Below are positions 7,030-32,579 of a DNA stretch of 34,993 nucleotides, piece after piece. The DNA lies in the NCBI GenBank assembly GCA_028691515.1, contig JAQUZE010000011.1:1-34993 (forward strand), given 5' to 3'. The notes under the pieces are model-generated. The model was not told where the DNA came from and did no database searches. It was given only the letters and a program-made list of their open reading frames with translations. Numbering within the stretch: the stretch's first letter is position 1; the number at the start of each line of letters is the position of its first letter. Source of the stretch: Bacilli bacterium. Its GTDB lineage: Bacteria > Bacillota_I > Bacilli_A > ML615J-28 > CAG-698. The position numbers were made by a program, and so were the translations under genes.

Positions 7030-7044
7030 ATGTAAGCGTTTTCG
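7030..7044 (+). promoter_or_regulatory. cre-like catabolite-repression operator
   Basis: ATGTAAGCGTTTTCG matches the CcpA operator consensus WTGNAANCGNWNNCW at every defined position except the last. It sits immediately downstream of the -10, over the expected transcription start, where CcpA binding would repress. Another cre-like site occupies the same position before the lysine operon. No CcpA gene is visible here, so the regulator is inferred. Confidence 0.5.
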
Positions 7045-13474: not shown

Positions 13475-16400
13475 ATGAATTTTAAAAATAACAAAAGCAT
13501 TCTTAACAAAAATCTTTTCATTTATGTTAAGAATTTATGCTTTGTTATTGTTTTTTTGATGATGTTAGCTTTGGTTAGTGGGTGTGAGAAAGTTATTAAG
13601 GTTACAGATATTAATCTTGATACAGATGATGTTACTGTTGAGGTTGGAGATGTAGTTAATGTTTTTGCAACTGTTTTACCAACTGATGCTACAAACAAAG
13701 TTGTTATTTGGACATCAAGTGATCCTCTTGTAGCTACAGTGGATGAGGGAGTAGTTAGTACTTTAAGTGTTGGTGAGACTATAATTACTGCTAAGATTGA
13801 TAAAATTGAAGCAAGTTTTAAAGTAACGGTTATATTAGAAAAAGTTACTATTAGTTTTGCTAATACTAGTTTGGACAATATTGAAATTAATAAAAACAGT
13901 AAACTAAGTGTGCCTGAAGAACCAGTTAAAGAAGGATATACTTTTGATAATTGGTATATAGATAGTGAGTTTAATACTTTATATGATTTTGATAATGAAG
14001 TAACAGAGAATTTAACACTTTATGCGAGATTTATAAAAAATAGTTTTGATGTTGTTTTTGCAAACACTTCGCTTGAGATACAACAAGTTGATTCTGGAAG
14101 TAAACTACTTAAACCTGAAGATCCTGAAAAAGAAGGATATACTTTTGATAATTGGTATATAGATAGTGAGTTTAATACTTTGTATGATTTTGATTCTTTA
14201 GTTACAGAAGATCTAACAATTTATGCGAGATTTAGTGTAAAGGTATACACTGTAGTTTTTGCAGATACTGATATTGATGATGTTTTGGTTGAACACAATC
14301 AAAAAGTTGCAAGACCAGAGGATCCTGTAAAAGAAGGATATATTTTTAGTGGTTGGAGGGAAAGCTTATCACCTTATAATTTTTATAATTTTGATTCTTT
14401 AGTTGTTAGTGATATAACACTTAATCCAGTTTTTACTGAAATTACAGAATTTATAGTATCATTTGAAAATATTGCTATGGAAGATATAGTTGTAAACAAG
14501 GGAGAAAAATTAAGTGAATTAGAAGATCCTATAAAAGAAGGATTTACTTTTGGAGGATGGTTTAGTGATAGTGAATTTAATACTTTGTATGATTTTGATT
14601 TAGTATTAACTAATCATTTAACACTTTATGCTAAATGGGATGAAATTACTTATACTGTTACTCTAATTTCTTATGATGATGTTATCTTAGATTCTTTAAA
14701 AATTAAAGAAGGTGAAAATTTATCAACAATTAATGAGTATAACAGAGATGGTTATATTTTTGTTGATTGGTATATAGATAGTAGTTTTGCTGTAAAAGCA
14801 AGGCTTTCAAATCCAGTAATTGAGGATTTAACTTTGTATGCTAAATGGGAAGCTAGAACTGATGTAGCATATACTATTAATCATTATTTATATGATGTAG
14901 ATAGTGATGAATATTTAATTGAAGAAACTATTAATTATACAGGGACAACTGGTGAGACTGTTTTTGCTGAGTTTAAAGAATATCCAGGTTTAATGAGTGA
15001 ATATGCAGTTTATTCAGGAGTTGTAAAAGGAGATGGTTCTTTAGTTATTAATATTCGTTATGTGGAGTTTGATGGGGATATTATTTATCATTTAGATGGT
15101 GGTAATTTTACTTATCCTAATAGAGAAGCTATGGCTCTTGATTTTTTAGCAGATTATAATGAGGCTACAAGCTCTGCAATTACTTTAGCTGAGTTAGAAG
15201 CTTATGGTAATTGGAGTCCATTAAATATGCATATAATGTTATTTACTGAGCCTTATCGTACTAAATGGATGTGGATGATTGATTATTTAGGACAAGTAGG
15301 TTCAACAACAAATAAAAGTGCTTGCAAATTATTAAAAACTGCAAGTTCACTTGCAGCGTTTACTAGTAGTAGTGATAATAATAAATATGCAGTTGAGTAT
15401 GAAGTAAGAGCATTTATTTTAGGAATTAAATATACTAAGAATGCTAACTGGATGTCATCTGATTATTCTGTGTATGATATTGGAAATGGTTTTTGGAATT
15501 TATTTGTTCAGTATAATGAGCAAACTAAATATACTACAGATGGTAGTGATGTTGAGTTAGCATATAAAGTGTATAAAGAAGGCTTCTTATTTAAGGGTTG
15601 GTATTTTGAAGAAGATTTTGTTAATAGAGCAACTGCATCAGTTAACAGAGGTTGTGATTTATATGCAAAATGGGAACCAGATAATCCATTAACTGAAATT
15701 ATTATTACAAATCCTGTTACTGAAATAACTAAATTAGAAACGCATCAATTGATTTTAGATTTTGTTCCTGGTGATGCATTTAGTAAGCAAGTAAAATATT
15801 CATCAAGTGATCAAACTATATTGTTGGTTTCTGAAGATGGATTAATTACCGCAGTAAATTCTGGAACAGCAATTATTACAGTTAAATCAGCAACAAGTGA
15901 TGTTTCAATATCTATAACTATTAATGTGCCTGTGGAATCTAATATAGTAGTAGATGTTTCAAGTGATTATAATGGAGTTTTAAATGTTTCAGAAGAATTT
16001 AGTTTAATTGTGAGTAAATATGGTGTTTATTCATCTGAAGAAATTGAATTTGCATCAAGTAATACTGATATTATAACTGTTACTGATAATGGTGTAGTTA
16101 AAGGTATATCTGAGGGATCAGCTTTGATTATGATTTCCGCAAAGAGTTTTGGGAGTATATTTATGAGTTTAGATGTAACAGTTAAGAATTTAGAAGAAAC
16201 AAGCGATATAGATAAGTTGTTTAAATTACTAGTTGATGCTAATCAACCTGTGGTTGATAAAATTAATGCTAGTTTATATTATGATAATTTTTCTTCTTAT
16301 CAACAATATTATGATGCGTCTTATGGAAGTGTTAATTTATTCTTATTTGATGATTTAAGATTGGATCGAGAAACTTATGCAGTTACGCCTTCTATTGGAA

Positions 16401-17311
16401 ATAATACTAGTGGATTAAAATCATCTACTGAGTTTATTGCAGTTCATGATACAGCAAATCTCAATGGAGGATTAGCAGGTCATGGGAATTATTGGTTAAC
16501 TGCTTCAACTTCAATTCATTTTACTGTTGGTGATTATGGAGTAATTGGGAATCTTCCAGAAGAGTATGTAGCGTATCATGCTGGAGATGGAACTAGTTCC
16601 ACATTTACTTGGACAGATACTTCTGTAGTATCAAATGGTAGCAAACCTATAATTGATATTTCAAGTGATGGTTATTATACATTTAATGGTGAGAAGAGTA
16701 GTGTAAAAGCACCAACTGGAAATAGTGGACAAATTTTGGATTCATCATATTTTACTTCATTAGGACCAGTTTGGAAGATTGGTGAAAATAATAATTACTT
16801 TATCGGTACAACTTACTTTACTACTAGTCAAGTAAGTCGTGGAGTAATAGCTAATCATGGTGGTAATAATAATAGTATTGGTATAGAAATGTGTGTTAAT
16901 ACAACTGGAGAAATAGTTGATACATGGCAAAGAAATGCTAAATTAGTAGGAATGTTATTAAATAAATATGGTCTTGATTTAACAAGAGTTCAACAACATA
17001 ATAGTTTTAGTGGTAAAAATTGTCCACAATCTTTAAGAATGAGTAATTATTGGGATAAATTTATGGAAATGGTTGCTTTAGAATTAGAGATTCAATCTAA
17101 TTATAGTGAAGCTATTATTAGTATTGTTTCAAATAATCCAGATTTAATTAGTAATACTGGTAGAGTTATTGGTATGCCAGTAGTAGATACTGCAGCAAGT
17201 TACACTTTAACTGTTAAGCTTGGAGAAGAAACAAGAAGTATAGATTTAGGAGTAATAATTCCTGGAACTGCTTCATGGAAACAATTAAATGGTTATTATT
17301 CAACAAAATAA
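13475..17311 (+). CDS. Large lipoprotein with Ig-like and InlB-type repeats and an N-acetylmuramoyl-L-alanine amidase domain
   Basis: A 1278-aa exported lipoprotein: hydrophobic segment about 20-34, lipobox LVSGC with C37. Order: a BIG2 Ig-like domain (about 42-118); five InlB B-type repeats (about 125-465) of the EGYTFDNWY...LTLYARF form; a YTINHYLYD segment; a sixth B-type repeat split by about 130 residues of unfamiliar sequence (about 530-745); two BIG2-like domains (about 750-910); an Amidase_2 domain (about 975-1205); and a C-terminal Ig-like tail. The amidase looks intact: H991 in AVHDTAN, H1175, K1181 and C1183 (HNSFSGKNCP) match the zinc and catalytic positions of T7 lysozyme-type amidases. 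It should cut the amide linking MurNAc to L-Ala in peptidoglycan, either the cell's own or a neighbour's. AGGAGG precedes the ATG. Confidence 0.88.
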   Translation: MNFKNNKSILNKNLFIYVKNLCFVIVFLMMLALVSGCEKVIKVTDINLDTDDVTVEVGDVVNVFATVLPTDATNKVVIWTSSDPLVATVDEGVVSTLSVGETIITAKIDKIEASFKVTVILEKVTISFANTSLDNIEINKNSKLSVPEEPVKEGYTFDNWYIDSEFNTLYDFDNEVTENLTLYARFIKNSFDVVFANTSLEIQQVDSGSKLLKPEDPEKEGYTFDNWYIDSEFNTLYDFDSLVTEDLTIYARFSVKVYTVVFADTDIDDVLVEHNQKVARPEDPVKEGYIFSGWRESLSPYNFYNFDSLVVSDITLNPVFTEITEFIVSFENIAMEDIVVNKGEKLSELEDPIKEGFTFGGWFSDSEFNTLYDFDLVLTNHLTLYAKWDEITYTVTLISYDDVILDSLKIKEGENLSTINEYNRDGYIFVDWYIDSSFAVKARLSNPVIEDLTLYAKWEARTDVAYTINHYLYDVDSDEYLIEETINYTGTTGETVFAEFKEYPGLMSEYAVYSGVVKGDGSLVINIRYVEFDGDIIYHLDGGNFTYPNREAMALDFLADYNEATSSAITLAELEAYGNWSPLNMHIMLFTEPYRTKWMWMIDYLGQVGSTTNKSACKLLKTASSLAAFTSSSDNNKYAVEYEVRAFILGIKYTKNANWMSSDYSVYDIGNGFWNLFVQYNEQTKYTTDGSDVELAYKVYKEGFLFKGWYFEEDFVNRATASVNRGCDLYAKWEPDNPLTEIIITNPVTEITKLETHQLILDFVPGDAFSKQVKYSSSDQTILLVSEDGLITAVNSGTAIITVKSATSDVSISITINVPVESNIVVDVSSDYNGVLNVSEEFSLIVSKYGVYSSEEIEFASSNTDIITVTDNGVVKGISEGSALIMISAKSFGSIFMSLDVTVKNLEETSDIDKLFKLLVDANQPVVDKINASLYYDNFSSYQQYYDASYGSVNLFLFDDLRLDRETYAVTPSIGNNTSGLKSSTEFIAVHDTANLNGGLAGHGNYWLTASTSIHFTVGDYGVIGNLPEEYVAYHAGDGTSSTFTWTDTSVVSNGSKPIIDISSDGYYTFNGEKSSVKAPTGNSGQILDSSYFTSLGPVWKIGENNNYFIGTTYFTTSQVSRGVIANHGGNNNSIGIEMCVNTTGEIVDTWQRNAKLVGMLLNKYGLDLTRVQQHNSFSGKNCPQSLRMSNYWDKFMEMVALELEIQSNYSEAIISIVSNNPDLISNTGRVIGMPVVDTAASYTLTVKLGEETRSIDLGVIIPGTASWKQLNGYYSTK
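13928..14194 (+). repeat. 201-bp-period direct repeat inside the lipoprotein gene
   Basis: The 66 bases at 13928-13993 recur at 14129-14194 with one mismatch (A13981 against G14182). A shorter third copy lies at 14567-14599. The copies encode successive InlB-type repeats (EGYTFDNWYIDSEFNTLYDF). Near-identity at DNA level, including third codon positions, points to recent duplication or gene conversion. Confidence 0.8.
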
Positions 17312-17355: not shown

Positions 17356-18486
17356 TTGAATCAAACACATGCAAAATTTAATACAAAAGGACAAATAATT
17401 AAACTAGCTTTAGGAGATAGTCATTCTGTTGCCTTATCTAAATCTAAGCGATTTTTTGTCTGGGGCTCAAATGCTAGAGGGCAACTTGGGGATGCTACAC
17501 TAATTGATAAAAGAGTCCCAACTGATATAACTGATTTATTTGTTTTTGATGAAGATGAAGTAATTAGTAAAATTAGTGCTGGTGGATGGCATACAGCATT
17601 ACTTACATCTAAAAATCAATTGTATATTTGGGGTTACAATCAATATCGTCAACTTGCTACTGGAACTAAGGTTGATTCATCAAGTCCTATTAACATTACT
17701 AATAAATTTGAATTATTTCATGATGAAAAAATTATTGATGTTAATTTAGGTGGATATAATTCTTCACTAATTACATCATATGGTAGAATTTTTACATGGG
17801 GTGATAATGAATTTGGTAATTTAGGTGGCTTGTTTGAAACTATGAAGCAAGTATCAATTGATATTACTGGGAATTTTAATTTAAATGAAAATGAAAAAAT
17901 TGATAAATTATATTTAAGAAATAATCATTCAGCAGCAATATCATCATCAAAGAGAGTTTTTACTTGGGGTGTAAATGCTAGTGGTCAACTTGGAAATGGA
18001 AGTTTTAAGATTAAAAAAGATCCGACAGATATTACTAATTTATTTAATTTAGATGATAATGATTATATAATTGAAATGTCTCTTGGTGATTGGTATTCTT
18101 TTGCTTTATCACATAAAGGAAGACTGTTTGGATTTGGAGATAATCAGTATTATCAATTAGGTATAAAAACTTTTAGTAATAATATAAGAAAACCACTCGA
18201 TGTAACGTTTTATTTAGGTTTATTTACAGATGAGAAAGTAGTTTCAGTAGTTTGTGGAAAAGACTGCACTGCAGTTTTAACATCTAAAAATAGGATTATT
18301 ACTTTTGGTCGTAATAAGTTTTCACAATTAGGATATCCTCTTAAAAAGAAAAAAGCTTTACCTTTTGATATTACAACGCAGTTCGGATTAAAAGATGATT
18401 TTATTTCTTCAATTTATGCAGGTAATAATCATTTTGGTGCTTTAACAATTGCGGGTAAAGTATTAATGTGGGGAAAATTATATTAA
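17356..18486 (+). CDS. Seven-repeat RCC1-like beta-propeller protein
   Basis: A 376-aa protein made almost wholly of RCC1/ATS1-type repeats: about seven blades of 50-57 residues, each with a G.(W/N/D).(H/Y).(S/T)A.(L/I)(S/T) strand, then (R/K)(V/I/L)(F/Y)(T/V)WG.N..(G/R)QL. Between blades are linkers such as PTDITDLF and PTDITNLF with acidic DE/NE ends. The last blade is short and could be closed by the N-terminal strand. No signal peptide or transmembrane helix is visible, so it appears cytosolic despite following a secreted amidase. Propellers of this kind usually bind partner proteins; none can be named. The start is TTG (17356-17358) with GAGGGG seven to ten bases upstream. The 44-base gap has no terminator, so it is probably cotranscribed with the lipoprotein gene. 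Confidence 0.85.
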   Translation: MNQTHAKFNTKGQIIKLALGDSHSVALSKSKRFFVWGSNARGQLGDATLIDKRVPTDITDLFVFDEDEVISKISAGGWHTALLTSKNQLYIWGYNQYRQLATGTKVDSSSPINITNKFELFHDEKIIDVNLGGYNSSLITSYGRIFTWGDNEFGNLGGLFETMKQVSIDITGNFNLNENEKIDKLYLRNNHSAAISSSKRVFTWGVNASGQLGNGSFKIKKDPTDITNLFNLDDNDYIIEMSLGDWYSFALSHKGRLFGFGDNQYYQLGIKTFSNNIRKPLDVTFYLGLFTDEKVVSVVCGKDCTAVLTSKNRIITFGRNKFSQLGYPLKKKKALPFDITTQFGLKDDFISSIYAGNNHFGALTIAGKVLMWGKLY

Positions 18487-18493
18487 AAACAGA

Positions 18494-18525
18494 AAAAAAG
18501 GTTCACTTATAGTGAGCCTTTTTTT
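18494..18525 (+). terminator. Intrinsic terminator after the RCC1 gene
   Basis: AAAAAAGGTTCACT (18494-18507), loop TAT, AGTGAGCCTTTTTT (18511-18524), with one G-T pair and a long T-run. Strong form. Confidence 0.85.
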
Positions 18526-18544
18526 AAATTAAGAATGAAAGTTA

Positions 18545-18574
18545 TTGACTTGTTAGCGTGATTTTTGCTAAAAT
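18545..18574 (+). promoter_or_regulatory. Promoter of the lysine fermentation operon
   Basis: TTGACT (18545-18550), 18-base spacer, TAAAAT (18569-18574), with TGC directly before as an extended -10. Transcription should start near 18581, giving a leader of about 235 bases that contains the riboswitch. Confidence 0.75.
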
Positions 18575-18581
18575 ATGGTAT

Positions 18582-18596
18582 ATAGAAGCGTTTTCA
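18582..18596 (+). promoter_or_regulatory. cre-like operator before the lysine operon
   Basis: ATAGAAGCGTTTTCA fits the CcpA consensus WTGNAANCGNWNNCW except for A in place of the first G. It shares AAGCGTTTTC with the site at 7030-7044 and holds the same place just after the -10, over the expected start of transcription. This suggests the two amino-acid fermentation operons are repressed together by a CcpA-like regulator. Confidence 0.5.
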
Positions 18597-18600
18597 AAAG

Positions 18601-18768
18601 AGACGTGGTAGAGGAGCATTGCAAAGGTAAATCGAAAGAGGCTAAGCACTTATGAGGTCGATTGAATGTTAGCAATGCCGAAATGGTTTGATGAGCTTTT
18701 AAGTCAGACTGTTGGAAATTTTTTGGACAAAAGATTTCTGTCATTGATTAGTCAATGGAGTGCTACCG
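18601..18768 (+). ncRNA. Lysine riboswitch (L box)
   Basis: The leader folds as a lysine riboswitch. P1: GGTAG (18607-18611) with CTACC (18763-18767). The conserved AGAGG follows P1. P2 base: GCATTGC (18616-18622) with GCAATGC (18672-18678), then the conserved CCGAA. P3: GTTTGA (18686-18691) with TCAGAC (18704-18709). P4: a perfect ten-base stem (18715-18724 with 18729-18738) closed by GGAC. P5: ATTGA/TCAAT (18743-18747/18752-18756), preceded by CTGTC and followed by GGAGTGCTAC, the family's 3' signature. AAGC in the P2 arm could kiss GCTT in the P3 loop. The next operon degrades lysine, and P1 overlaps the terminator foot, so lysine probably activates expression. Confidence 0.9.
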
Positions 18769-18803
18769 GTTAAACATTTTGTTTAACCGGTATATTTTAT
18801 TTT
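18764..18803 (+). terminator. Riboswitch-controlled terminator
   Basis: Perfect 12-bp stem TACCGGTTAAAC (18764-18775) with GTTTAACCGGTA (18781-18792), loop ATTTT, followed by TATTTTATTTT. Its first bases (TACC) are also the 3' strand of riboswitch P1, so the two helices exclude each other at the terminator base. Ligand-stabilised P1 would leave only a short AU-rich hairpin separated from the T-run. Confidence 0.8.
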
Positions 18804-18818
18804 AGGGAGGATTTATTA

Positions 18819-19199
18819 ATGAAGGCAATTTTAAGAGTTAGAATGGGAAGTCAAGATGCTCATTATGGTGGTAATTTAGTTGATGGAGCTAAGATCTTAG
18901 CTTTATTTGGTGATGTTGCAACAGAGCTTTTGATTAAGCTTGATGGAGATGAAGGATTATTTAAAGCATATGATATGGTTGAATTTATGGAAGCAGTTTA
19001 TGCTGGTGATTATTTAGAAGTTAGTGGAGAAATTGTAAAAGTTGGTAATACTTCTAGAAAAATGGAATTTGTTGCTAGAAAAGTTATATCTGCAAGGAAA
19101 GATATTTCTTCGTCTGCTGCTGATTTTTTAGATGAGCCGATAGTTGTTGCTCGTGCAAGTGGAACTTGCGTTACTTTAAAAGATAAAAAGAGAAAATAA
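18819..19199 (+). CDS. kal: 3-aminobutyryl-CoA ammonia-lyase
   Basis: A 126-aa hotdog-fold enzyme. It removes ammonia from L-3-aminobutyryl-CoA to give crotonyl-CoA, the step that joins lysine fermentation to butyrate formation. The opening [20 protein letters not shown] and the central [17 protein letters not shown] resemble known Kal proteins, and the small size is normal. GGGAGG stands eight bases before the ATG. It is the first gene after the riboswitch and lies two bases from kce. Sequence identity to the family is recognised from memory, and the surrounding complete pathway supports it strongly. Confidence 0.88.
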
Positions 19200-19201
19200 T
19201 T

Positions 19202-20035
19202 ATGGAAAAATTAATTATTACAGCTGCAATTTGTGGGGCAGAGGTAACCAAAGATGATAATCCAGCAGTTCCATATACTATATCTGAAATGGTTAGAGAA
19301 GCAGTTTTAGCATATAATGCTGGTGCTAGTATTATTCATCTTCATGTAAGAGAAGATGATGGGACTCCCACGCAAAATATAAACAGATACAAGCAAGTAA
19401 TTAACGCTATTAAAGAAGCTATTCCTGATGTAATCATTCAAGTATCTACTGGGGGAGCTTTAGGTATGAGTATTGAAGAGAGAACGGATGTTCTTAATTT
19501 AAAACCAGAAATGGCTACTCTTGATTGTGGAAGTGTTAATTTTGGTGGTGATGAAGTTTTTATAAATACCGAAAATGATATTATTTATGTTGCTAAAAAA
19601 CTACAAGAAAATAATGTTAGAGCAGAATTAGAGTGTTTTGAAAAAGGGCATATTGATTTAGTTTTAAGATTATTAAGAAAAAAAATTATAGATATAAATC
19701 AACATTTTAGCTTTGTTTTAGGAGTAAATGGAGGAATGAGTGGAGAAGAAAGAGATTTCTTTTTTTTAAAGGATTCAATTCCTAATACTGCAACTTATTC
19801 TGTTGCTGGAATTGGAAGATTTGAATTACCACTTGCAAAACTTGCAATTAAGCATGGGGGACATGTAAGGGTTGGACTAGAAGATAATCTTTATGTAAGC
19901 AAGGGTGTTTTAGCAAAATCTAATGCAGAATTAGTTAATTGTGTTGTTGAAATTGCCAAAAAAGAAAATAGAGAAATTGCATCAGCAAATGAAGCAAGAA
20001 GAATTTTAGGATTAATGGAGGGTAAAAATGAATAG
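19202..20035 (+). CDS. kce: 3-keto-5-aminohexanoate cleavage enzyme
   Basis: A 277-aa BKACE (DUF849) family TIM-barrel enzyme. It cleaves 3-keto-5-aminohexanoate with acetyl-CoA to acetoacetate and L-3-aminobutyryl-CoA. The start, IITAAICGAE with E14, and IIHLHVRED with zinc ligands H46 and H48 are as in characterised Kce. GLEDNLY near 226 supplies the late acidic ligand (E227). Length is right. The stop is overlapped by the start of kdd (ATGAATAG), showing tight coupling. The DUF849 family has many substrates, but the neighbours fix this one. Confidence 0.92.
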   Translation: MEKLIITAAICGAEVTKDDNPAVPYTISEMVREAVLAYNAGASIIHLHVREDDGTPTQNINRYKQVINAIKEAIPDVIIQVSTGGALGMSIEERTDVLNLKPEMATLDCGSVNFGGDEVFINTENDIIYVAKKLQENNVRAELECFEKGHIDLVLRLLRKKIIDINQHFSFVLGVNGGMSGEERDFFFLKDSIPNTATYSVAGIGRFELPLAKLAIKHGGHVRVGLEDNLYVSKGVLAKSNAELVNCVVEIAKKENREIASANEARRILGLMEGKNE

Positions 20036-21059
20036 TGGATGTAAGTTTGGAACGCATAGAGTAATTTATCCTATTGGTTCACTTCCTCAAGCGGCCAAAA
20101 AATTAGATAATGAGTCATCTATTTTTGATAATGAGATAGAAATTAATGTTGATGTATTAAATATTGATTCGGCTTCATTTACACAACTTAAAACTGCTAG
20201 TGATAACAATCCAGTTAAAATAGCAGAAATGATTTTAAATATTGTAAATGAAAGAGGAAAAATGCAGAATCCAGTTACTGGATCTGGGGGAATGTTAATT
20301 GGAACAATTAAAAACATCGGCAAGAATCACCCAGATAAATCATTAAAAGTTGGAATGAAGATTGCAACTTTAGTTTCACTCACTTTAACACCTCTTTTTA
20401 TTAAAAAAATTAATAAAGTTAATATTAAAAATGAGCAAGTTGAAATTGAGGGAACTGCATATTTATTTGCTACAGGAATATATGCTGTTTTACCAGATGA
20501 TATCCCTGAAAAATTAGCTCTTGCAGCATTAGATGTTGCTGGAGCACCTGCACAAGTCAATAAATTAGTTAAAAAAGGAGATATAGTATATATCCTTGGT
20601 GCTGGTGGTAAAAGTGGACTTTTATGTTGTTATCAAGCAAAGAAAAATGTTGGAAAGACTGGTTTAGTAATAGCAGTTGAATATAGAGAAGATCAAAAAC
20701 AATTATTACTTGATAATAATTTAGCAGATATTGTTTTAATTCATGATGCAAGAAATGCTCATGGATTATATAAAAAAGTTATTGATAATAATCTTCCTTT
20801 AGGAGATGTTGTTATTAATGTTGTAAATATAAATAATACAGAAAATGCTTCAATATTAATTGCTAAAGATGAAGGATTAGTTTATTTCTTTTCTATGGCA
20901 ACTTCTTTCACAAAAGCTGCACTCGGTGCAGAAGGAGTTGGGAGTGATGTAACGATGTTAATTGGAAATGGCTATACAAAGAATCATGCGAATTTTACTT
21001 TAGATATTATTAGAGAATCTGAATTTATTAGAAAAATATTTATGGAAAAATATGTTTAA
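20028..21059 (+). CDS. kdd: L-erythro-3,5-diaminohexanoate dehydrogenase
   Basis: A 343-aa NAD(P)-dependent dehydrogenase that oxidatively deaminates L-erythro-3,5-diaminohexanoate to 3-keto-5-aminohexanoate, the Kce substrate. The opening GCKFGTHRVIYPIGSLPQAA is distinctive of Kdd. A Rossmann-type loop, ILGAGGKSGLLC (about 189-200), binds the cofactor, and the chain resembles zinc-free alcohol dehydrogenases. It overlaps kce by eight bases, and kamA follows 11 bases after its stop. No odd features. Confidence 0.92.
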   Translation: MNSGCKFGTHRVIYPIGSLPQAAKKLDNESSIFDNEIEINVDVLNIDSASFTQLKTASDNNPVKIAEMILNIVNERGKMQNPVTGSGGMLIGTIKNIGKNHPDKSLKVGMKIATLVSLTLTPLFIKKINKVNIKNEQVEIEGTAYLFATGIYAVLPDDIPEKLALAALDVAGAPAQVNKLVKKGDIVYILGAGGKSGLLCCYQAKKNVGKTGLVIAVEYREDQKQLLLDNNLADIVLIHDARNAHGLYKKVIDNNLPLGDVVINVVNINNTENASILIAKDEGLVYFFSMATSFTKAALGAEGVGSDVTMLIGNGYTKNHANFTLDIIRESEFIRKIFMEKYV

Positions 21060-21070
21060 GGAGAATACAT

Positions 21071-22285
21071 ATGTCAATAAAGTTAAATGATAAATATTTA
21101 CAAAGGAAAGCTAAATATTTTCCTAATGTTAGTGTTGATGATTGGAATAATTGGAAATGGCAAGTCAGAAATAGAATTATGACTGTGGAAAAATTATCTG
21201 AGTATATAAATTTAAGTAAAGAAGAAAAAGAAGCAATAAAACAAGTATTATCAAAATTTAGAATGTCAATAACACCATATTTTTTATGCTTAATTGATCC
21301 GGATGATCCGAATTGTCCGATTAGAAAACAAGCCATACCTTCTATTAAAGAAACTTATAATGGAGTACATGATTTATTAGATCCTCTTCATGAAGATGTT
21401 GATTCACCAGTTCCAGGACTTACTCATAGATATCCTGATAGAGTACTTTTTTTGATTACTGATATGTGCTCAATGTATTGTCGTCATTGTACGAGAAGAC
21501 GTTTTGCAGGGCAAAAGGATTTTGAACAACCACTAGCAAAAATTGATAATGCGATTGAATATATTAGAAATCATTCTGAAGTGAGAGATGTTTTATTATC
21601 TGGAGGAGATGCATTACTTGTTAGCGATGAGAGATTAGAATATATTATTAAAAAGTTAAGAGAAATTAAACATGTTGAAATAATTAGAATTGGAACAAGA
21701 ACACCAGTTGTTCTTCCTCAAAGAATTACTGATGATTTGGTTAATATGTTGAAAAAGTATCATCCTATTTGGATAAACATTCATGTTAATCATAGTAATG
21801 AATTTACTAGCGAATTAGTAAATGCACTTAATAAAATGAATAATGCAGGAATTCCTTTAGGAAATCAATCAGTTTTATTAAGAGGCATAAATGATTGTGT
21901 TCATATTATGAGGGATTTAGTTCATCATTTAGTATATTACAGGGTTAGACCATATTATATTTATCAATGTGATTTATCTATGGGAATAGAACATTTTAGA
22001 ACTTCAGTTTCTAAAGGAATTGAAATTATTGAAGGGCTACGTGGTCATACATCTGGATTTGCTGTACCAACATTTGTTGTTGATGCACCTGGAGGTGGAG
22101 GAAAAATTCCTGTGGGACCTAATTATGTTATTTCTCAAGGCCCAAATAAAGTTATATTAAGAAATTTTGAGGGACGTATTGCAACTTATTTTGAACCTGA
22201 AGATTATAAAGATGAATGTAATTGTCCAGATTGTCAGAGTAAGAAAGCTTTAATTGGAGTTAGTGGATTATTACAAAAGAAGTAA
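21071..22285 (+). CDS. kamA: L-lysine 2,3-aminomutase
   Basis: A 404-aa radical SAM, PLP-dependent enzyme turning L-lysine into L-beta-lysine, the first pathway step. The cluster motif CSMYCRHC (C133, C137, C140) is intact. PGGGGK places the PLP-binding lysine at K345. C276 in RGINDC and C383, C385, C388 in DECNCPDC match the structural zinc cysteines of clostridial enzymes. DWNNWKWQVRNRI near the start is typical. Length agrees with the longer clostridial type rather than short EpmB-like relatives, favouring free lysine as substrate. GGAG precedes the ATG. It is central in a ten-gene operon under the lysine riboswitch. Confidence 0.95.
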   Translation: MSIKLNDKYLQRKAKYFPNVSVDDWNNWKWQVRNRIMTVEKLSEYINLSKEEKEAIKQVLSKFRMSITPYFLCLIDPDDPNCPIRKQAIPSIKETYNGVHDLLDPLHEDVDSPVPGLTHRYPDRVLFLITDMCSMYCRHCTRRRFAGQKDFEQPLAKIDNAIEYIRNHSEVRDVLLSGGDALLVSDERLEYIIKKLREIKHVEIIRIGTRTPVVLPQRITDDLVNMLKKYHPIWINIHVNHSNEFTSELVNALNKMNNAGIPLGNQSVLLRGINDCVHIMRDLVHHLVYYRVRPYYIYQCDLSMGIEHFRTSVSKGIEIIEGLRGHTSGFAVPTFVVDAPGGGGKIPVGPNYVISQGPNKVILRNFEGRIATYFEPEDYKDECNCPDCQSKKALIGVSGLLQKK

Positions 22286-22296
22286 AGGAGTAATTT

Positions 22297-23259
22297 ATGA
22301 AGGAGTTATTAGCAAATTCAAGAGTGATTGCTATTGTTGGAAGAGGTAAAAATGTTGGTAAAACAACAACACTTAACCATATTCTAAAATTATATAGCGA
22401 TGAGGAAGGTATTTCTATTACTTCTATTGGTTATGATGGTGAAGATATTGATAATATTACTGAAACTATTAAACCTAGAATTTATATATATCCAAACACT
22501 TATTTTGCCACAACAACTTTTGGATTAAAACATTCTAATTTTTTATATGAAATAATTGAAAAAACAAATATTAAAACAGCTTTAGGAAATGTTGTTATTG
22601 GAGTTGCAAAAGGGTATGGAAATATTCTTCTTTGCGGGCCTTCAATTAAAAATGATATACAATGTGTTATTGATAAATTTAAAAATTTATCAAATAATAA
22701 AATATTTATTGATGGAGCTTTTAATAAAAGTATGCAAGCAGAACCTTATTTAAGTGATGCTATGGTTTTAGCAACTGGAGCTGCTTATAGCACTAATATT
22801 GAAGAAATAGTACTTGATACTAAGTATATTATTAGTTTATATAGTAGGGAATATTTATATCAAGATAAAATAAGTGATCTTTATATATATGATGCTTTAT
22901 TTGGTGATATTGCTGAATTTTATAAAAAAATTAGTTCTAATAATACTATTAGATTAAAAGGTTCCTTAACAGATAACTTTATAAAAGAATTACTTTATAC
23001 AAATAAAAAAGTTAAAGATATTGTTTTAGTAGTTGATAATCCAACAATTTGTTTTCTATCAAGAAAAATATTTGAGTATGCTAAAGTGAAAAACATTAGT
23101 ATTAGATTTTTACATACTACTGAAATTAAATTAATTACAATAAATCCTGTTTCTATTAATGGTATTTATCTTGATAGTGAGAAACTCATTAATGATTTAA
23201 AAGAAATTACAGATATAGCTATTTATGATGTTGTAAAAGAAGCTAAAGGGGAGAATTAA
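22297..23259 (+). CDS. kamB: KamB-like P-loop protein (lysine 5,6-aminomutase reactivation)
   Basis: A 320-aa protein with a MobB/CobQ-like phosphate loop, GRGKNVGKTTT (residues 15-25), followed by a region rich in short hydrophobic strands and AYSTNIEEIVLDTKY near 170. Position between kamA and kamD and length match KamB of other lysine fermenters. There kamB is normally followed by kamC, a MutS-like ATPase, and I recall the pair being annotated as a reactivase for the B12-dependent mutase. Here kamC is absent and kamD starts one base after this stop. Function for this single protein is therefore inferred. AAGGAG lies six bases before the ATG. Confidence 0.75.
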   Translation: MKELLANSRVIAIVGRGKNVGKTTTLNHILKLYSDEEGISITSIGYDGEDIDNITETIKPRIYIYPNTYFATTTFGLKHSNFLYEIIEKTNIKTALGNVVIGVAKGYGNILLCGPSIKNDIQCVIDKFKNLSNNKIFIDGAFNKSMQAEPYLSDAMVLATGAAYSTNIEEIVLDTKYIISLYSREYLYQDKISDLYIYDALFGDIAEFYKKISSNNTIRLKGSLTDNFIKELLYTNKKVKDIVLVVDNPTICFLSRKIFEYAKVKNISIRFLHTTEIKLITINPVSINGIYLDSEKLINDLKEITDIAIYDVVKEAKGEN

Positions 23260-23260
23260 T

Positions 23261-24829
23261 TTGGGAAAATTAAGATTAGATCAAAAGATAATTGATTCAT
23301 CAAGAAATCTTGCTAAGAATATTTCTGATGATATTAAAAAAATGATTGATTGCCATACAACAATAACTGTTGAAAGAGCAATTTGTAGAATACTTGGAGT
23401 TGATGGGGTTAATGATGTTGGGATTCCCTTAGCTAATGTATTGGTAGATTTTGTTATAGAAAAAGGTGATATTAGTAAAGGTATTAGTTATTATTTAGGT
23501 AATGCTTTAATTGAAACTAATAAAAGCATTCAAGAGATTGCTAATTTAGTTAGTTTAGATGAATTGGATATAACAGCACTTAATATAAATTCTCTTGAAG
23601 ATATTAAGAAAGCACTTATATCTTTAGTAAGAGAAAAATTAGAAATTATTAAAAGTAATAGGAAATTAAGAAGTGAGTTATTAAAGAAATGTAAGAAGAA
23701 TACACCAGAATTGTATGTAATAGTAGCAACGGGTAATATTTACGAAGACGTTATTCAGGCTAAATCAGCTGCACGTTGTGGAGCGGATATTATTGCAATT
23801 ATTCGTTCTACTGGTCAATCATTACTTGATTATGTTCCTTATGGTGCAACAACAGAAGGGTTTGGTGGAACATTTGCTACTCAAGAGAATTTTAAAATAA
23901 TGAGAAAAGCTTTAGATGAAGTTGGAGAAGAAGTAGGAAGATATATTAAGTTAGTTAATTATGCATCAGGGCTTTGTATGCCAGAGATAGCTGCTATGGG
24001 AGCATTAGAAAGACTTGATGTAATGTTAAATGATTCTATGTATGGAATATTATTTAGAGATATTAATATGAAAAGGACTTTAATTGATCAATATTTTTCT
24101 AGAGTAATTAATGCTTATGCGGGAATTATTATTAATACGGGAGAAGATAATTATTTAACTACTTCTGATGCTGTTGAAGAAGCAAGAACTGTGATTGCAT
24201 CACAGTTTATAAATGAACAATTTGCTTTATCAGCATATTTAAAGGAAGAGTTACAAGGGTTAGGACATGCATTTGAAATAAATCCTAAATTTGAGAATGG
24301 TTTTTTATATGAAATTGCTAGTGCCTTGGCTGCTAGACAAATTTTCCCTAAAGCACCACTTAAATATATGCCACCTACAAAATATATGACAGGTAATATA
24401 TTTATGGGACAAGTACAAAATGCTTTGTTTAATGTAGCATCAATTATGACTGGGCAAGAAATTCATTTGCTAGGGATGATGAGTGAGGCTGTACATACTC
24501 CTTTTATGAGTGATAGAGCTTTAGCTATTGACAATGCTAAATATGTATTTAATACTATGAAAGATATTGAATCAGAAATTGAATTTAAGAAAGATGGTAT
24601 TATTGAAAAAAGAGCTAATCAAGTATTAAAAGAAGCTCATGATTTATTAGAAAAGATTTCTGAAATTGGTCTATATAAAGCTTTAGAAGAAGGAATGTTT
24701 GCTGATATAAAAAGATCAATTGATTCTGGTAAAGGAAAAGAAAATGTTTTCTTGAAAAACAGTGAATACTTTAATATTATCCAAGATGAAATGATTAAAG
24801 AGTTAAAGGAGGAATTTAATGATAAATAA
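23261..24829 (+). CDS. kamD: Lysine 5,6-aminomutase alpha subunit
   Basis: A 522-aa large subunit of adenosylcobalamin- and PLP-dependent beta-lysine 5,6-aminomutase, which yields L-erythro-3,5-diaminohexanoate for Kdd. The TIM-barrel core contains RCGADIIAIIRSTGQSLLDY, YGATTEGFGGTFATQENF and LMPS-like late segments such as APLKYMPPTKYMTGN and GMMSEAVHTPFMSDRA, all typical of KamD. Length is normal. The start is TTG at 23261 with AAAGGGGAG before it; no earlier start is available because kamB ends one base upstream. The end overlaps kamE by 11 bases, as expected for subunits made in equal amounts. Confidence 0.93.
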   Translation: MGKLRLDQKIIDSSRNLAKNISDDIKKMIDCHTTITVERAICRILGVDGVNDVGIPLANVLVDFVIEKGDISKGISYYLGNALIETNKSIQEIANLVSLDELDITALNINSLEDIKKALISLVREKLEIIKSNRKLRSELLKKCKKNTPELYVIVATGNIYEDVIQAKSAARCGADIIAIIRSTGQSLLDYVPYGATTEGFGGTFATQENFKIMRKALDEVGEEVGRYIKLVNYASGLCMPEIAAMGALERLDVMLNDSMYGILFRDINMKRTLIDQYFSRVINAYAGIIINTGEDNYLTTSDAVEEARTVIASQFINEQFALSAYLKEELQGLGHAFEINPKFENGFLYEIASALAARQIFPKAPLKYMPPTKYMTGNIFMGQVQNALFNVASIMTGQEIHLLGMMSEAVHTPFMSDRALAIDNAKYVFNTMKDIESEIEFKKDGIIEKRANQVLKEAHDLLEKISEIGLYKALEEGMFADIKRSIDSGKGKENVFLKNSEYFNIIQDEMIKELKEEFNDK

Positions 24830-25565
24830 AAATTTAATTCTTCCTTATGGAGATACTTTAAATGATGGAAGAGTGCAAGTGAGTTTTACATTACCAATTT
24901 CTAAAGGGGAGCTTGCAATGCAAGCTAGTAGAGAAGTTGGTGTTAGTATGGGCTTAAAACAGGTTGAAGTTGTGCATATGGAGAAAGTTGATGAAGGATT
25001 TACATTTTTTGTAATTTATGGAAGCTTAAATAATCCTGTTGATTTAGGAAAAATTAAAATTAAAGATGAAAAGAAAAAATCCTTAACAAAGGATGAAATT
25101 GAAGAATATATAACGAATAAATTTGGACGAGATATTGTTGTTGTTGGGGCAACAACAGGAACTGATGCTCATACTGTTGGCATCGACGCAATTATGAATA
25201 TGAAAGGTTTTGCGGGTCATTATGGGCTTGAAAGATATAAGGGAATTACTACGTATAATTTGGGAAGCCAAGTTGATAATGAAGATTTTATTAGATTTGC
25301 GAAAAAGGTTAATGCTGATGTTTTATTAGTTTCGCAAACAGTTACTCAAAAAAATGTTCATGTAAATAATTTAGTTAATTTAGTTGAATTATTAGAAGCA
25401 GAAAAAATGCGACATAAAGTAATTTTAATTGTTGGTGGAGCAAGAATTACTAGAGAACTTGCAAAAGAATTAGGTTATGATGCCGGTTTTGGTTTTGGTA
25501 GTTTTGCTGAGGATGTTGCTACATATTTTATTGAAGAATTATTTAATAGAACACAGGAGAGCTAG
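24819..25565 (+). CDS. kamE: Lysine 5,6-aminomutase beta subunit (B12- and PLP-binding)
   Basis: A 248-aa small subunit of lysine 5,6-aminomutase. After an N-terminal dimerisation region (about 1-100) comes the cobalamin domain. DAHTVG (116-121) holds H118, the expected lower cobalt ligand. K129 in MNMKGFAGHYG is the likely PLP lysine, since the 11-residue gap equals that between the corresponding His and Lys in the clostridial enzyme as I recall it. SQTVTQKNVH and IVGGARITRELA are the other cobalamin-fold segments. AAAGGAGG precedes the ATG inside the end of kamD. Confidence 0.93.
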   Translation: MINKNLILPYGDTLNDGRVQVSFTLPISKGELAMQASREVGVSMGLKQVEVVHMEKVDEGFTFFVIYGSLNNPVDLGKIKIKDEKKKSLTKDEIEEYITNKFGRDIVVVGATTGTDAHTVGIDAIMNMKGFAGHYGLERYKGITTYNLGSQVDNEDFIRFAKKVNADVLLVSQTVTQKNVHVNNLVNLVELLEAEKMRHKVILIVGGARITRELAKELGYDAGFGFGSFAEDVATYFIEELFNRTQES

Positions 25566-25567
25566 AG

Positions 25568-26209
25568 ATGGATAAGATAATTAGTATTGAACAATTTAAA
25601 GGCTTGCTTAAAGATGGTATGAGTATAATGGTTGGAGGTTTTATGGCATGTGGTACAGCTGAACCACTAATGGATGCTATTGTTGATAGTAGGGTAAAAG
25701 ATTTAACTATTATTTGTAATGATGCTGGTTTAAGTGATATGGGTGTTGGAAAACTTATTAACTTTTTACAAGTTAAAAAGTTAATTGCTTCTCATATAGG
25801 ATTAAATCCAACTGCGCAGAAACAAATACTTTTGGGAGAATTGGAAGTTGAGCTTGTTCCTCAAGGAACATTAGCAGAAAGAATTAGAAGTGGTGGTGCT
25901 GGTCTTGGTGGTGTTTTAACAAAAACAGGATTAGGTACTATTGTTGCAGAAGGAAAAGATGTAATTAAAGTTGATGGTGAAGACTTTTTATTAGAAAAGC
26001 CATTAAAAGCTGATATGACTATTCTAAGAGGTTCTTTTGTGGATTCATATGGTAATGTTATCTATTCTGGCACTACAAGAAATTTTAATCCAGTTATGGC
26101 AACTGCAGGAGAGATTGTTGTTGTTTGGGCTGAATCTATGGATGAAAGTTTAGACAAAGAAAAAATAATGACGCCACATGTATTTGTGGATTATATAGTT
26201 AGGAATTAA
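25568..26209 (+). CDS. atoD: Butyryl-CoA:acetoacetate CoA-transferase, alpha subunit
   Basis: A 213-aa family I CoA-transferase alpha subunit. MVGGFMACGTAEPLMDAI near 20-37 is the family's glycine-rich CoA-binding signature. GTLAERIRSGGAGLGGVLT follows near 98, as in AtoD/ScoA. In lysine fermenters this enzyme moves CoA from butyryl-CoA to the acetoacetate released by Kce, giving acetoacetyl-CoA and butyrate. The substrate is assigned from context only. It begins two bases after kamE ends, and the beta subunit starts two bases after its stop. ACAGGAGAG is the ribosome site. Confidence 0.88.
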   Translation: MDKIISIEQFKGLLKDGMSIMVGGFMACGTAEPLMDAIVDSRVKDLTIICNDAGLSDMGVGKLINFLQVKKLIASHIGLNPTAQKQILLGELEVELVPQGTLAERIRSGGAGLGGVLTKTGLGTIVAEGKDVIKVDGEDFLLEKPLKADMTILRGSFVDSYGNVIYSGTTRNFNPVMATAGEIVVVWAESMDESLDKEKIMTPHVFVDYIVRN

Positions 26210-26211
26210 TT

Positions 26212-26865
26212 ATGGATTCTAAAATATTAATTGCAAAAAGAGTTGCTAAAGAATTAAGAGATGGTGATATTGTTAATTTAGGTATTGGTCTTCCAACAAT
26301 GGTTGCTGAGTATGTTCCAAAAGATATTGAAGTTTTTTTTCAATCTGAAAATGGTTTAATAAATTTAGGACCAAGGCCAGAAGAAGACTTAATTGATTTA
26401 GATGTTGTTAATGCTGGAGGAAGTCCTGTTTCTATATTAAAAGGAGGAGCCTATTTTGATAGCGCAACTTCATTTATGATTATTAGAGGTGGACATGTTG
26501 ATGTTACAGTTTTAGGATCTTTGCAAGTTGATGAAGAAGGAAGCATAGCCAATTGGATTATTCCTGGAAAACTTGTTCCTGGAATGGGTGGGGCAATGGA
26601 TTTACTTTGTGGAAGTAAGAAAGTAATTGTTGCGATGATGCATACTAATAAAGGAAGGTTAAAGATATTAAAAAAATGTAGTCTTCCTCTTACTGCAGTA
26701 AAGGAAGTTAATTGGATCTTTACTGAACTTGGCGTTATGGAAATAACAAAAGAAGGTATTGTTTTAAGGGAATATAATCCTAATTATTCAATAGATTATA
26801 TTCAAGAAATGACAGAAGCAAAGTTAATTATTCCAAGTGATATAAAAGTAATGGAAATAGAATAA
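26212..26865 (+). CDS. atoA: Butyryl-CoA:acetoacetate CoA-transferase, beta subunit
   Basis: A 217-aa catalytic subunit of a family I CoA-transferase. GIGLPTMVAEYV (about 24-35) and QSENG with E46, the glutamate that forms the acyl-CoA thioester, are intact. NAGGSPVSILKGGAYFDS and GSIANWIIPGKLVPGMGGAM are further family segments. Size and tandem order with the alpha subunit match AtoDA-type enzymes. It regenerates acetoacetyl-CoA while freeing butyrate, so lysine carbon is not lost as acetoacetate. Start is an ATG right after the alpha stop; the ribosome site is weak, suggesting translational coupling. Confidence 0.9.
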   Translation: MDSKILIAKRVAKELRDGDIVNLGIGLPTMVAEYVPKDIEVFFQSENGLINLGPRPEEDLIDLDVVNAGGSPVSILKGGAYFDSATSFMIIRGGHVDVTVLGSLQVDEEGSIANWIIPGKLVPGMGGAMDLLCGSKKVIVAMMHTNKGRLKILKKCSLPLTAVKEVNWIFTELGVMEITKEGIVLREYNPNYSIDYIQEMTEAKLIIPSDIKVMEIE

Positions 26866-26874
26866 GGTGAATAT

Positions 26875-27288
26875 ATGAATAGTTTAACAATTGATAAAAT
26901 TAAAGTAGGAGATTTTGCAGAAAATAAAAAAGCTTTTACAGAGGCTGACGTATTAGAATTTGCCAGAATTTCTGGAGATTTTAATTCTGCACATATAGAT
27001 GTTGATTATGCCAAAACAACTAAGTTTAAAAAAAGAATTGTTCATGGCTTATTAACTGCTGGTTTAATTTCTAGTTTGTTAGGAATGGAGTTACCTGGTA
27101 AAGGAACTTTATATTTAGAACAAAATTTACAGTTTCTAGCACCTGTTTATTTTAATGAACAAATAACTGCAAGAGTAGAAGTCATTGAAATAATTGATAA
27201 TAAAAAAGTTAAATTAAAAACTACTTGTAAGAATTCAGAAGGAATATTAGTAATTAACGGGACTGCTTTAGTATATCCGCCGAGGTAA
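26875..27288 (+). CDS. phaJ: MaoC-like (R)-specific enoyl-CoA hydratase
   Basis: A 137-aa single hotdog-domain MaoC-family protein. The active-site pair D35 and H40 in SGDFNSAHIDVDYA has the spacing of (R)-specific enoyl-CoA hydratases (PhaJ). RIVHGLLTAGLISSLLG and the late LYLEQNLQFLAPVYF are further family motifs. It would interconvert crotonyl-CoA and (R)-3-hydroxybutyryl-CoA. Placed last in the lysine operon, it could feed acetoacetyl-CoA reduction back to crotonyl-CoA, but this would need an (R)-specific reductase, which is not visible here. Thioesterase-like or unrelated hydratase roles remain possible. AAGGTGA precedes the ATG, nine bases after atoA. Confidence 0.8.
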   Translation: MNSLTIDKIKVGDFAENKKAFTEADVLEFARISGDFNSAHIDVDYAKTTKFKKRIVHGLLTAGLISSLLGMELPGKGTLYLEQNLQFLAPVYFNEQITARVEVIEIIDNKKVKLKTTCKNSEGILVINGTALVYPPR

Positions 27289-27980: not shown

Positions 27981-28415
27981 ATGGTAAATAAAAAAACAAA
28001 TAAGGGGTTTACTATAATAGAACTTGTAATTACACTTGGAGTTTTTGCAATTGTTGGAACCTTAATTACTGGATTAGTAGTAATGGCTAGTAATTTTACT
28101 AAAGAACAAAATATAATATCAAGTACTATGAGGGAAATTAATGATTCTAAAGAAATTATTATTAATAAATTTTCGGAATATGATACGGATTTATATCAAG
28201 TTGTGCTAGAAGAAAATAAAGTTACTACTCTTGATGAAGATTTATTATTAGAGTTTAATGAGGGAACTTTAAATAGTGGAAGTAAAATTACTATTTTAGA
28301 ATATATTGTAAATATAAAATTTGAAAAGTTAAGTGAAAGTAAATTAATTAAATGTACTTTTGTTTTACATGATGATCAAGAATTTAGTTTCTTGATAAAT
28401 AGAAGAAGTGAGTAA
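27981..28415 (+). CDS. Type IV prepilin-like protein
   Basis: A 144-aa prepilin. The short basic leader ends at G9, followed by FTIIELVITLGVFAIVG: F at +1, the key glutamate at +5 (E14) and a hydrophobic helix to about residue 33. The rest is a small hydrophilic domain with no cysteines. It should be cut and N-methylated by the peptidase encoded downstream and built into the pilus or pseudopilus. Size and a single N-terminal helix fit minor pilins; whether it is the main subunit cannot be told. GGGGG before the ATG gives the ribosome site. First gene of the operon. Confidence 0.85.
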   Translation: MVNKKTNKGFTIIELVITLGVFAIVGTLITGLVVMASNFTKEQNIISSTMREINDSKEIIINKFSEYDTDLYQVVLEENKVTTLDEDLLLEFNEGTLNSGSKITILEYIVNIKFEKLSESKLIKCTFVLHDDQEFSFLINRRSE

Positions 28416-28440
28416 TAATTAAAATTGAAAGGATTATATT

Positions 28441-29700
28441 ATGATTTTTGGTGTTGATGTAAAAAATTCTAGAATTAAATTAATGAGAACACAATCACAA
28501 GTTGAAAAAATTGTTGTTGAATATCTTCCTTTTGATGATGAACTTGCTTTAAGAGGAAATATTGCAGAAATGTTTGAGTCTGCTTTATCTATATATGTTA
28601 AGGAACATGGTGATTTTAAATCAACTTCTGTTACTTTGGTTTTACCTAATAATTTAGTTGCTATTGATGCAATAACTCTTCCTACAATGAAAAAGTCAGT
28701 TTTATCAGATGTTTATTCAACAGAATTTAAGACTTTATATAAGAACCATACTAGTTTGCAAAGTAAGAGTTTAGTTATTAAAAGCACTAAAATGTCTACA
28801 ACATATTTGGTTACTATGATTCAAAAGAAAATTATTGCTGACATTGATGATGTTTTAGATAAATATAATTTAAATTTAAAATTAACAACTTTTGCTGCTG
28901 CTGCAACTGCAGATGCAGTAATTGCACTTGGACCAAAAGTTGGTAAACATAATACAATGATTGTTGATGTAAAAAAAGAAGAAACTGAAATTGTATTTTA
29001 TGGAAAAGATATAATTTATGGTTTTTCTTCTCTTCCTTTTGGTTATGATGTTTTAAAAAAAGATTCTGTTATTAATGATAGTATGGTTTATTTTAATGAG
29101 GTTTCAGAGTTAGCAGTTATTAATGCTAAAGAATCTGCTAAGAGTAAATCATTAACAATGGCGATTGATTTAGAGGAAGATGAAGAAGTAAGTAAAGATG
29201 TAAGTTCTGACCCTCAAGTTATGGAAACTTCTAAGACAGAATTAAGTAGAGATGAATTTGTGAAATTAATGCAAGAGGATAGTAAGACAAAAGAAGAAGA
29301 TTTAGAAGATGATGATTTAGAATTAGAAGATATTAAGGTTGAAGAAAGTAAAAAGACTTTAACAAGAAAAATTAAAAAATATCCTAAATTTATGCAAAGA
29401 GAAGAGCCTACTAGTGAGGAAGAATATATTATTGAAAATTTTAGATTGTTTCAAAAAAGAATTTTGTTATATGCAAAACATTGTGAACTTAGTGATTATC
29501 TTCCTAATGTAGATTATGTTTTAGTTCATTTTCCTGAACAATTTATGTTTTTAAATAATAAAGATATTCAAAAAAACAATAAAGATCTGGAATTAAAGTT
29601 CTTTTCTTCTGTAAATGCTAATAATGGAATAGTATCTGAAAACCTTGATTTATATGGAAGTAAAATAGGAAGATTAACTACAAAAAATTCAATATTTTAA
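28441..29700 (+). CDS. pilM: PilM-like pilus assembly ATPase-fold protein with acidic insertion
   Basis: A 419-aa cytosolic protein resembling PilM, the actin-like (ASKHA) component that links the cytoplasm to the pilus inner-membrane complex. It opens MIFGVDVKNSRIKLM, the family's first phosphate loop. VTLVLPNNLVAIDAITLP near 60 and MIVDVKKEETEIVFY near 178 are the next ASKHA strands. Residues about 230-320 form a long, highly acidic, low-complexity stretch (for example LEEDEEV and EEDLEDDDLELED) not expected in PilM, which is normally nearer 340-350 residues. The chain then resumes with an ENFRLFQKRILLYAKH helix. GAAAGG precedes the ATG. No pilN or pilO follows, so its usual partners are not seen. 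Assignment rests on fold-like pattern and context. Confidence 0.7.
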   Translation: MIFGVDVKNSRIKLMRTQSQVEKIVVEYLPFDDELALRGNIAEMFESALSIYVKEHGDFKSTSVTLVLPNNLVAIDAITLPTMKKSVLSDVYSTEFKTLYKNHTSLQSKSLVIKSTKMSTTYLVTMIQKKIIADIDDVLDKYNLNLKLTTFAAAATADAVIALGPKVGKHNTMIVDVKKEETEIVFYGKDIIYGFSSLPFGYDVLKKDSVINDSMVYFNEVSELAVINAKESAKSKSLTMAIDLEEDEEVSKDVSSDPQVMETSKTELSRDEFVKLMQEDSKTKEEDLEDDDLELEDIKVEESKKTLTRKIKKYPKFMQREEPTSEEEYIIENFRLFQKRILLYAKHCELSDYLPNVDYVLVHFPEQFMFLNNKDIQKNNKDLELKFFSSVNANNGIVSENLDLYGSKIGRLTTKNSIF

Positions 29701-29719
29701 AATATAAGAGGTATTTAAT

Positions 29720-30133
29720 ATGAAAAAATATTATAGAAAAAATAAAAATGGATTTTCTTTATTAGAGTCTGTTATTTCTATTTTGTTAATTTCTATTATT
29801 ATGACAGCAGTTCTTTCGACTATTTTATATACTAATTCAATTACTAAAAAAGCAGAAATTAAGATGTATGCGATTAATGAAATTGATAATATTGTAACTT
29901 GCTTTAAAGCAGAAGATTATACTTATTATGAAATGGATGGATTTGTTAATAATCAAGAATTAAAATTTTCAAATGATTATGATTTAATTAATTCTACAGA
30001 GTATTTTTATAAAATTGTTTTAAATGTTATAGAGATTGATGGTGGAATAAGAAGTATTAGGGCAACAGCATATAATAGTGAAGATAAACAAATCTATCAA
30101 ATGGAAAATCCTTATGTTTTAGGAGGTTCCTAA
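29720..30133 (+). CDS. Type IV prepilin-like protein (PilV/GspI type)
   Basis: A 137-aa prepilin. The basic leader MKKYYRKNKNG is followed by FSLLESVISILLISIIM: F at +1 and E at +5 (E16), then a helix to about residue 38. The FSLLE form is common in minor pilins of the PilV/GspI/ComGE kind. A TY-rich acidic domain with one cysteine follows. It should be processed by the operon's peptidase and act as an assembly-starting minor pilin. AGAGG lies eight bases before the ATG. Its stop directly abuts the next start. Confidence 0.82.
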   Translation: MKKYYRKNKNGFSLLESVISILLISIIMTAVLSTILYTNSITKKAEIKMYAINEIDNIVTCFKAEDYTYYEMDGFVNNQELKFSNDYDLINSTEYFYKIVLNVIEIDGGIRSIRATAYNSEDKQIYQMENPYVLGGS

Positions 30134-30505: not shown

Positions 30506-30510
30506 AACAG

Positions 30511-31326: not shown

Positions 31327-31341
31327 TAATGGAGGAGAAAA

Positions 31342-32547: not shown

Positions 32548-32579
32548 TAAATATTTTGTAAAAAGAAGGAGGATCTTTA

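Follow-up and report, generated by a model that had tools for sequence, protein, structure and literature searches.

The leader analyzed here raises the question of sign: it carries a lysine aptamer and stands directly before genes that consume lysine, and bound lysine could turn transcription of those genes either off or on. Both directions have precedent. Barrick and Breaker noted that certain lysine riboswitches have ON logic and bury pieces of the terminator stem (PMC2258182), a logic credited there to Rodionov 2003, and Mukherjee et al. listed lysine riboswitches before kal and kce and called them positively regulated (PMC5584792). That some lysine riboswitches have ON logic, and that they regulate kal and kce positively, has thus been proposed before; what is new here is the consistency of the ON rule across loci and the existence of two terminator geometries. 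The window examined is the whole 34,993-nt stretch of contig JAQUZE010000011.1.

A cmscan search of the window with Rfam placed the lysine riboswitch (L box) model RF00168 at positions 18601-18773 of the forward strand, with 101 bits (gathering cut-off 30), an E value of 5.9e-26, and coverage of model positions 1-182 of 182; nothing else in the window reached cut-off. The original prediction had claimed a conserved lysine aptamer and proposed this search as a check, and the match is both significant and full length. In the Rfam alignment the five-helix junction and its conserved core segments AGAGG, GCCGAA, CUGUCA, and GGAGUGCUACC are intact, and these segments are kept in relatives as well. 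The P1 helix pairs UGGUAG (18606-18611) with CUACCG (18763-18768) through U-G, G-C, G-C, U-A, A-U, and G-C. By the covariance model, the element is a real lysine riboswitch for which lysine binding is predicted, and it is the single copy found by genome search in a 1.23-Mb, 95% complete genome.

Downstream lie ten nearly gapless genes (18819-27288, all on the forward strand). The first seven score above NCBI curated cut-offs, which bears out the earlier reading of a lysine-degradation operon: kal, 3-aminobutyryl-CoA ammonia lyase (18819-19199; NF052388, 187 bits, cut-off 160); kce, 3-keto-5-aminohexanoate cleavage enzyme (19202-20035; NF052387, 406 bits, cut-off 382); kdd, 3,5-diaminohexanoate dehydrogenase (20028-21059; NF052381, 259 bits, cut-off 200); kamA, lysine 2,3-aminomutase (21071-22285; TIGR03820, 611 bits, cut-off 525); kamB, lysine 5,6-aminomutase reactivase subunit (22297-23259; NF052386, 272 bits, cut-off 210); and kamD and kamE, lysine 5,6-aminomutase alpha (23261-24829; NF052384, 859 bits, cut-off 600) and beta (24819-25565; NF052385, 365 bits, cut-off 280). 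They are followed by CoA-transferase subunits A (atoD-like, 25568-26209; TIGR02429, 192 bits, cut-off 128.5) and B (atoA-like, 26212-26865; TIGR02428, 303 bits, cut-off 244) and by a MaoC-like enoyl-CoA hydratase, probably the last gene of the operon (26875-27288; below cut-offs, PRK08190, 125 bits). The whole is the pathway of lysine fermentation to acetate and butyrate. The upstream neighbors are a large cell-surface-like protein of 1278 aa (13475-17311), with Listeria-Bacteroides repeats, Ig-like domains, and an amidase domain, and an adjoining RCC1-repeat protein (17356-18486); downstream, at 27981-34271, is a type IV pilus or type II secretion-like cluster (prepilin-like proteins, prepilin peptidase, T2SSF, T2SSE). 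With neighbors of other function on both sides, the leader most likely serves the lysine-fermentation operon only.

The aptamer runs directly into an intrinsic terminator hairpin on the forward strand (18764-18792; 13 bp, 3-nt loop, -16.6 kcal/mol) with the sequence TACCGGTTAAACA-TTT-TGTTTAACCGGTA. The stem is followed in order by an 11-nt U-rich tail, TATTTTATTTT (18793-18803), the putative ribosome binding site AGGGAGG (18804-18810), and the kal ATG. The hairpin begins one base inside the P1 3' strand, so that UACCG is both the end of P1 and the foot of the terminator, and because these nucleotides are shared, the two helices are mutually exclusive. A 12-bp terminator sharing TACC with P1 had originally been described; the overlap stands, with the stem corrected to 13 bp and the shared piece to the 5 nt UACCG. 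The hairpin is the one terminator-like site found in 18300-19100, where 0.2 were expected, and none of 300 shuffles of the platform produced a terminator that overlapped P1 with an energy of -14 kcal/mol or lower. The terminator scan gave no second terminator between 18792 and kal, in keeping with the earlier claim that there is no separate antiterminator. The stem is largely invariant in an alignment of four relatives, in which P1 is conserved too. The U tract is broken by two A residues, and termination may therefore be leaky.

It could be argued that the aptamer is a nonfunctional relic that no longer binds lysine, leaving the terminator as a merely constitutive attenuator; compared with the Rfam consensus, the P2 loop region has small deletions and UU replaces GG close to the P2 internal loop, which would fit this. 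Against it stand the 101-bit score and the intact core, and the terminator, the P1 3' strand, and the core are kept in relatives whose aptamers are 65% identical or less. We regard decay of the aptamer as very improbable.

How the two helices compete was followed by free-energy folding of growing transcripts from two assumed 5' ends. The probability of P1 is 0.85-0.96 with the transcript 3' end at 18772-18784 and still 0.76-0.83 at 18788; it falls to 0.03-0.04 at 18792 and to 0.001 or less at 18803, while terminator pairing climbs in step with this loss, up to 0.97 at 18803. Folding with and without P1 constrained, also suggested in the original prediction, reduces the -16.6 kcal/mol terminator to a best leftover hairpin of -4.6 kcal/mol when P1 is held (GUUAAACA-UUU-UGUUUAAC; 8 bp, AU-rich, and ending about 5 nt before the U tract). 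Once the full-length transcript is folded, forming P1 costs 8-9 kcal/mol; lysine must therefore act kinetically, during transcript growth. The sequence of events we propose begins with transcription of the aptamer and closure of P1, as the folding shows. Without lysine, the 3' arm of the terminator displaces the P1 3' strand in the folds as soon as it is transcribed, and the 13-bp hairpin forms against the U tract, where transcription would stop. With lysine bound, the aptamer would lock P1 and hold UACCG, only the 8-bp AU-rich hairpin could form, and polymerase would read through into kal.

The layout was then compared with gene context in 119 lysine riboswitches: that of the window, 79 more from genomes of its class, and 39 anchored examples found in kal-carrying genomes (a Marinitoga locus, L194, was left out, its aptamer not being anchored by the script). 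Gene context was assigned with tblastn, the operon proteins of the window serving as queries; L210 was classed as catabolic from a CoA-transferase gene only and L205 from kamA only. The terminator overlaps P1 in 35 of 35 lysine riboswitches that precede lysine-fermentation genes (14 of 14 in the class and 21 of 21 outside it). Among the 14 class loci, the strict detector finds a terminator in 13, all overlapping P1, and a looser detector adds an overlapping one in the last (L106). Elsewhere, the strict detector reports a P1-overlapping terminator in 1 of 84 loci, those counted as OFF being loci whose fetched stretch (mostly 1.3-4.3 kb, less at some contig ends) lacks the window's operon proteins, so that catabolic genes lying beyond it may have escaped notice. 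The 66 other class loci yielded 56 terminators by the strict detector and no overlap with P1 (0/66), with L107 counted as catabolic (kal-kce-kdd-kamA follow it, in the same orientation, at a distance of about 3.7 kb). The single overlapping case is L207, one of 18 other loci outside the class; its contig ends 126 nt after the aptamer, and on another contig of that genome kal starts 15 nt from the edge, so a contig end has probably split the same lysine-fermentation operon here. The P1-overlapping terminator, singled out earlier as worth testing, is no unusual layout in this context: it is the normal form before lysine-fermentation genes. Fisher tests gave p-values of 5e-10 and 4e-10 with related loci treated as independent; the ON label changes only twice on the aptamer tree, and these values therefore overstate the number of independent events.

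The survey also bears on whether this could be a conventional OFF switch, in which the P1-overlapping hairpin would be an antiterminator and lysine would promote a separate terminator further downstream. The majority of lysine riboswitches are OFF switches, and antiterminator-like hairpins overlapping P1 do occur in OFF relatives (e.g., L067, L061, and L102): the looser detector reports hairpins that overlap P1 in 6 of 52 other loci of the class. In five of these six, P1 is cooperative with a separate downstream terminator by 0.8-4.3 kcal/mol, as expected of an OFF switch, and L054 is neutral. All catabolic loci tested show mutual exclusion of P1 and terminator, as opposed to neutral or cooperative behavior in the noncatabolic loci, except L079 (+0.2 kcal/mol) and L032 (+1.2 kcal/mol). 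In the window, however, the U tract lies directly 3' of the P1-overlapping hairpin itself, the stretch from 18792 to kal holds no further terminator, the genes downstream are catabolic, and no surveyed locus has a separate terminator before lysine-fermentation genes; an OFF switch here is improbable in the extreme. A translational switch, in which lysine would alter access to the kal ribosome site, has a precedent in E. coli lysC, whose lysine riboswitch controls translation and RNA decay (PMC5584792); here it has an extremely slim chance, as the site at 18804-18810 lies outside P1 and the terminator stem and is preceded by a U-tailed terminator.

With the ribosome site outside both helices, control is at the level of transcription. 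Mutual exclusion of P1 and terminator, no other terminator before kal, and a free ribosome site together imply that lysine-stabilized P1 should allow read-through; ON is also the sensible sign, because the downstream genes are catabolic for lysine. The original reading that lysine permits transcription is supported by these points and by the surveyed layout, and we place high confidence in 18601-18803 as a transcriptional ON lysine riboswitch that drives the lysine-fermentation operon, its response to lysine being predicted from folding and comparison.

Transcription of the leader would start from a forward-strand promoter with -35 TTGACT (18545-18550), an 18-bp spacer, and an extended -10, TGCTAAAAT (18566-18574). 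As a bare pattern (TTGACT-18-TAAAAT, with TG before the -10), it occurs at chance level (3 found, 3.2 expected) and is not significant; it aligns with TTGACW...TGATAAAAT in four relatives, and we accept it, including the extended -10 proposed earlier, because of this conservation. An operator had been proposed as well, its position unstated. The candidate we considered, the inverted repeat TTAGC-N9-GCTAA at 18553-18571, is at chance frequency in the window (1 found, 1.48 expected) and is not conserved in the four relatives, and it was rejected.

Between the -10 and the aptamer, a motif scan found a cre-like site on the reverse strand, TGAAAACGCTTCTA (18583-18596), which matches TGWAARCGYTWNCW at 13 of 14 positions, lies at the same place in the four aligned relatives, and would be the binding site of a regulator. 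Sites with at most one mismatch lie near the promoter in 10 of 13 ON loci of the class, compared with 1.2 expected even when two mismatches are allowed. Most catabolic loci of the class have equivalent sites, some overlapping the -35 (TTGACAACGCTTACA). Upstream cre-like sites are enriched at OFF loci of the class too (20 versus 3.6 expected); the enrichment is therefore not specific to catabolic operons. No genome-wide excess of the motif was found (33 matches versus 95 for the reversed control), and the LacI-family protein of the genome scores 260 bits, below the CcpA cut-off of 442. A search of the genome for HPr kinase gave no match, and the same search also missed B. subtilis among its controls. 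The LacI/CcpA-like gene (L221) has a cre-like palindrome, TGAAAGCTTTTTCA, 62 nt upstream (G000:C5:88682-88695), through which it possibly regulates itself. Another cre-like site, TGTAAGCGTTTTCG, lies at 7031-7044 of the window, in the gap between open reading frames ending at 6932 and starting at 7076. Sugar (CcpA-type) control, to which the site in the leader may contribute, is plausible rather than established and less firmly grounded than the lysine response.

In a tree of aptamers built without the P1 strands, the 36 ON loci (the 35 above and L207) fall into two well-supported groups of 28 and 8 that no bootstrap tree joins; the window belongs to the group of 8, with loci from two other families of its class. 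An AU test did not reject a single ON group (p 0.48), and the case for two origins of the ON form is thus suggestive rather than proven. Terminator placement separates the two groups: among the 28, the hairpin usually starts 12-19 nt ahead of the point where the Rfam match ends and takes up part of the conserved GCGCU core; among the 8, its start is 9-10 nt ahead of that point and only 4-5 nt of P1 are taken. Six of the eight loci in the window's group have a cre-like site at the promoter. A wider reading, which we find possible and somewhat doubtful, is that OFF ancestors gave rise to the ON form on two or more occasions, always ahead of lysine-fermentation genes, with the two lineages differing in geometry, and that the window's leader would be a two-input gate responding to lysine present and preferred sugar absent. 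Agreement between a kal/kce tree and the aptamer groups is imperfect: in this quick tree with long branches, kal/kce of the window fall with loci of the other aptamer lineage. Within the window's family, kal is present in only 4 of 28 genomes, and in two of these (G009, L235; G021, L238) a lysine riboswitch was sought and not detected; operon and leader are therefore patchy in the family. In a Mollicutes-like relative (L104, G078), a conserved region of kal contains an in-frame TGA, which would fit decoding of TGA as tryptophan in that lineage.

The leader shares its aptamer family and transcription attenuation with the OFF-type L box of B. subtilis lysC. There, an antiterminator reverses the sign; none is present in the window. 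In the adenine pbuE and glycine gcv ON riboswitches, a ligand-held aptamer helix likewise competes directly with the terminator; their ligands and aptamers differ. Burial of a terminator piece in the ligand-bound RNA is also the feature of the ON lysine riboswitches proposed earlier (PMC2258182). With the riboswitches before kal and kce in Clostridium sticklandii, Fusobacterium nucleatum, and Thermoanaerobacter (PMC5584792), it has in common aptamer class, target genes, and predicted positive sign; it differs from them in lineage (probably GTDB Bacilli with Mollicutes-like relatives), in controlling a full kal-kce-kdd-kamABDE-CoA-transferase operon, and in a terminator that takes only 5 nt of P1.

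These loci offer a natural case in which the same sensor RNA has the opposite sign, the terminator having moved by a few bases, and across the surveyed loci whose context could be read, the sign matches without exception what becomes of lysine, whether it is consumed or not. Such compact, predicted lysine-induced leaders would be material for studying the competition between P1 and terminator during transcription, and the simple rule may allow the sign of lysine riboswitches to be predicted in unannotated genomes.
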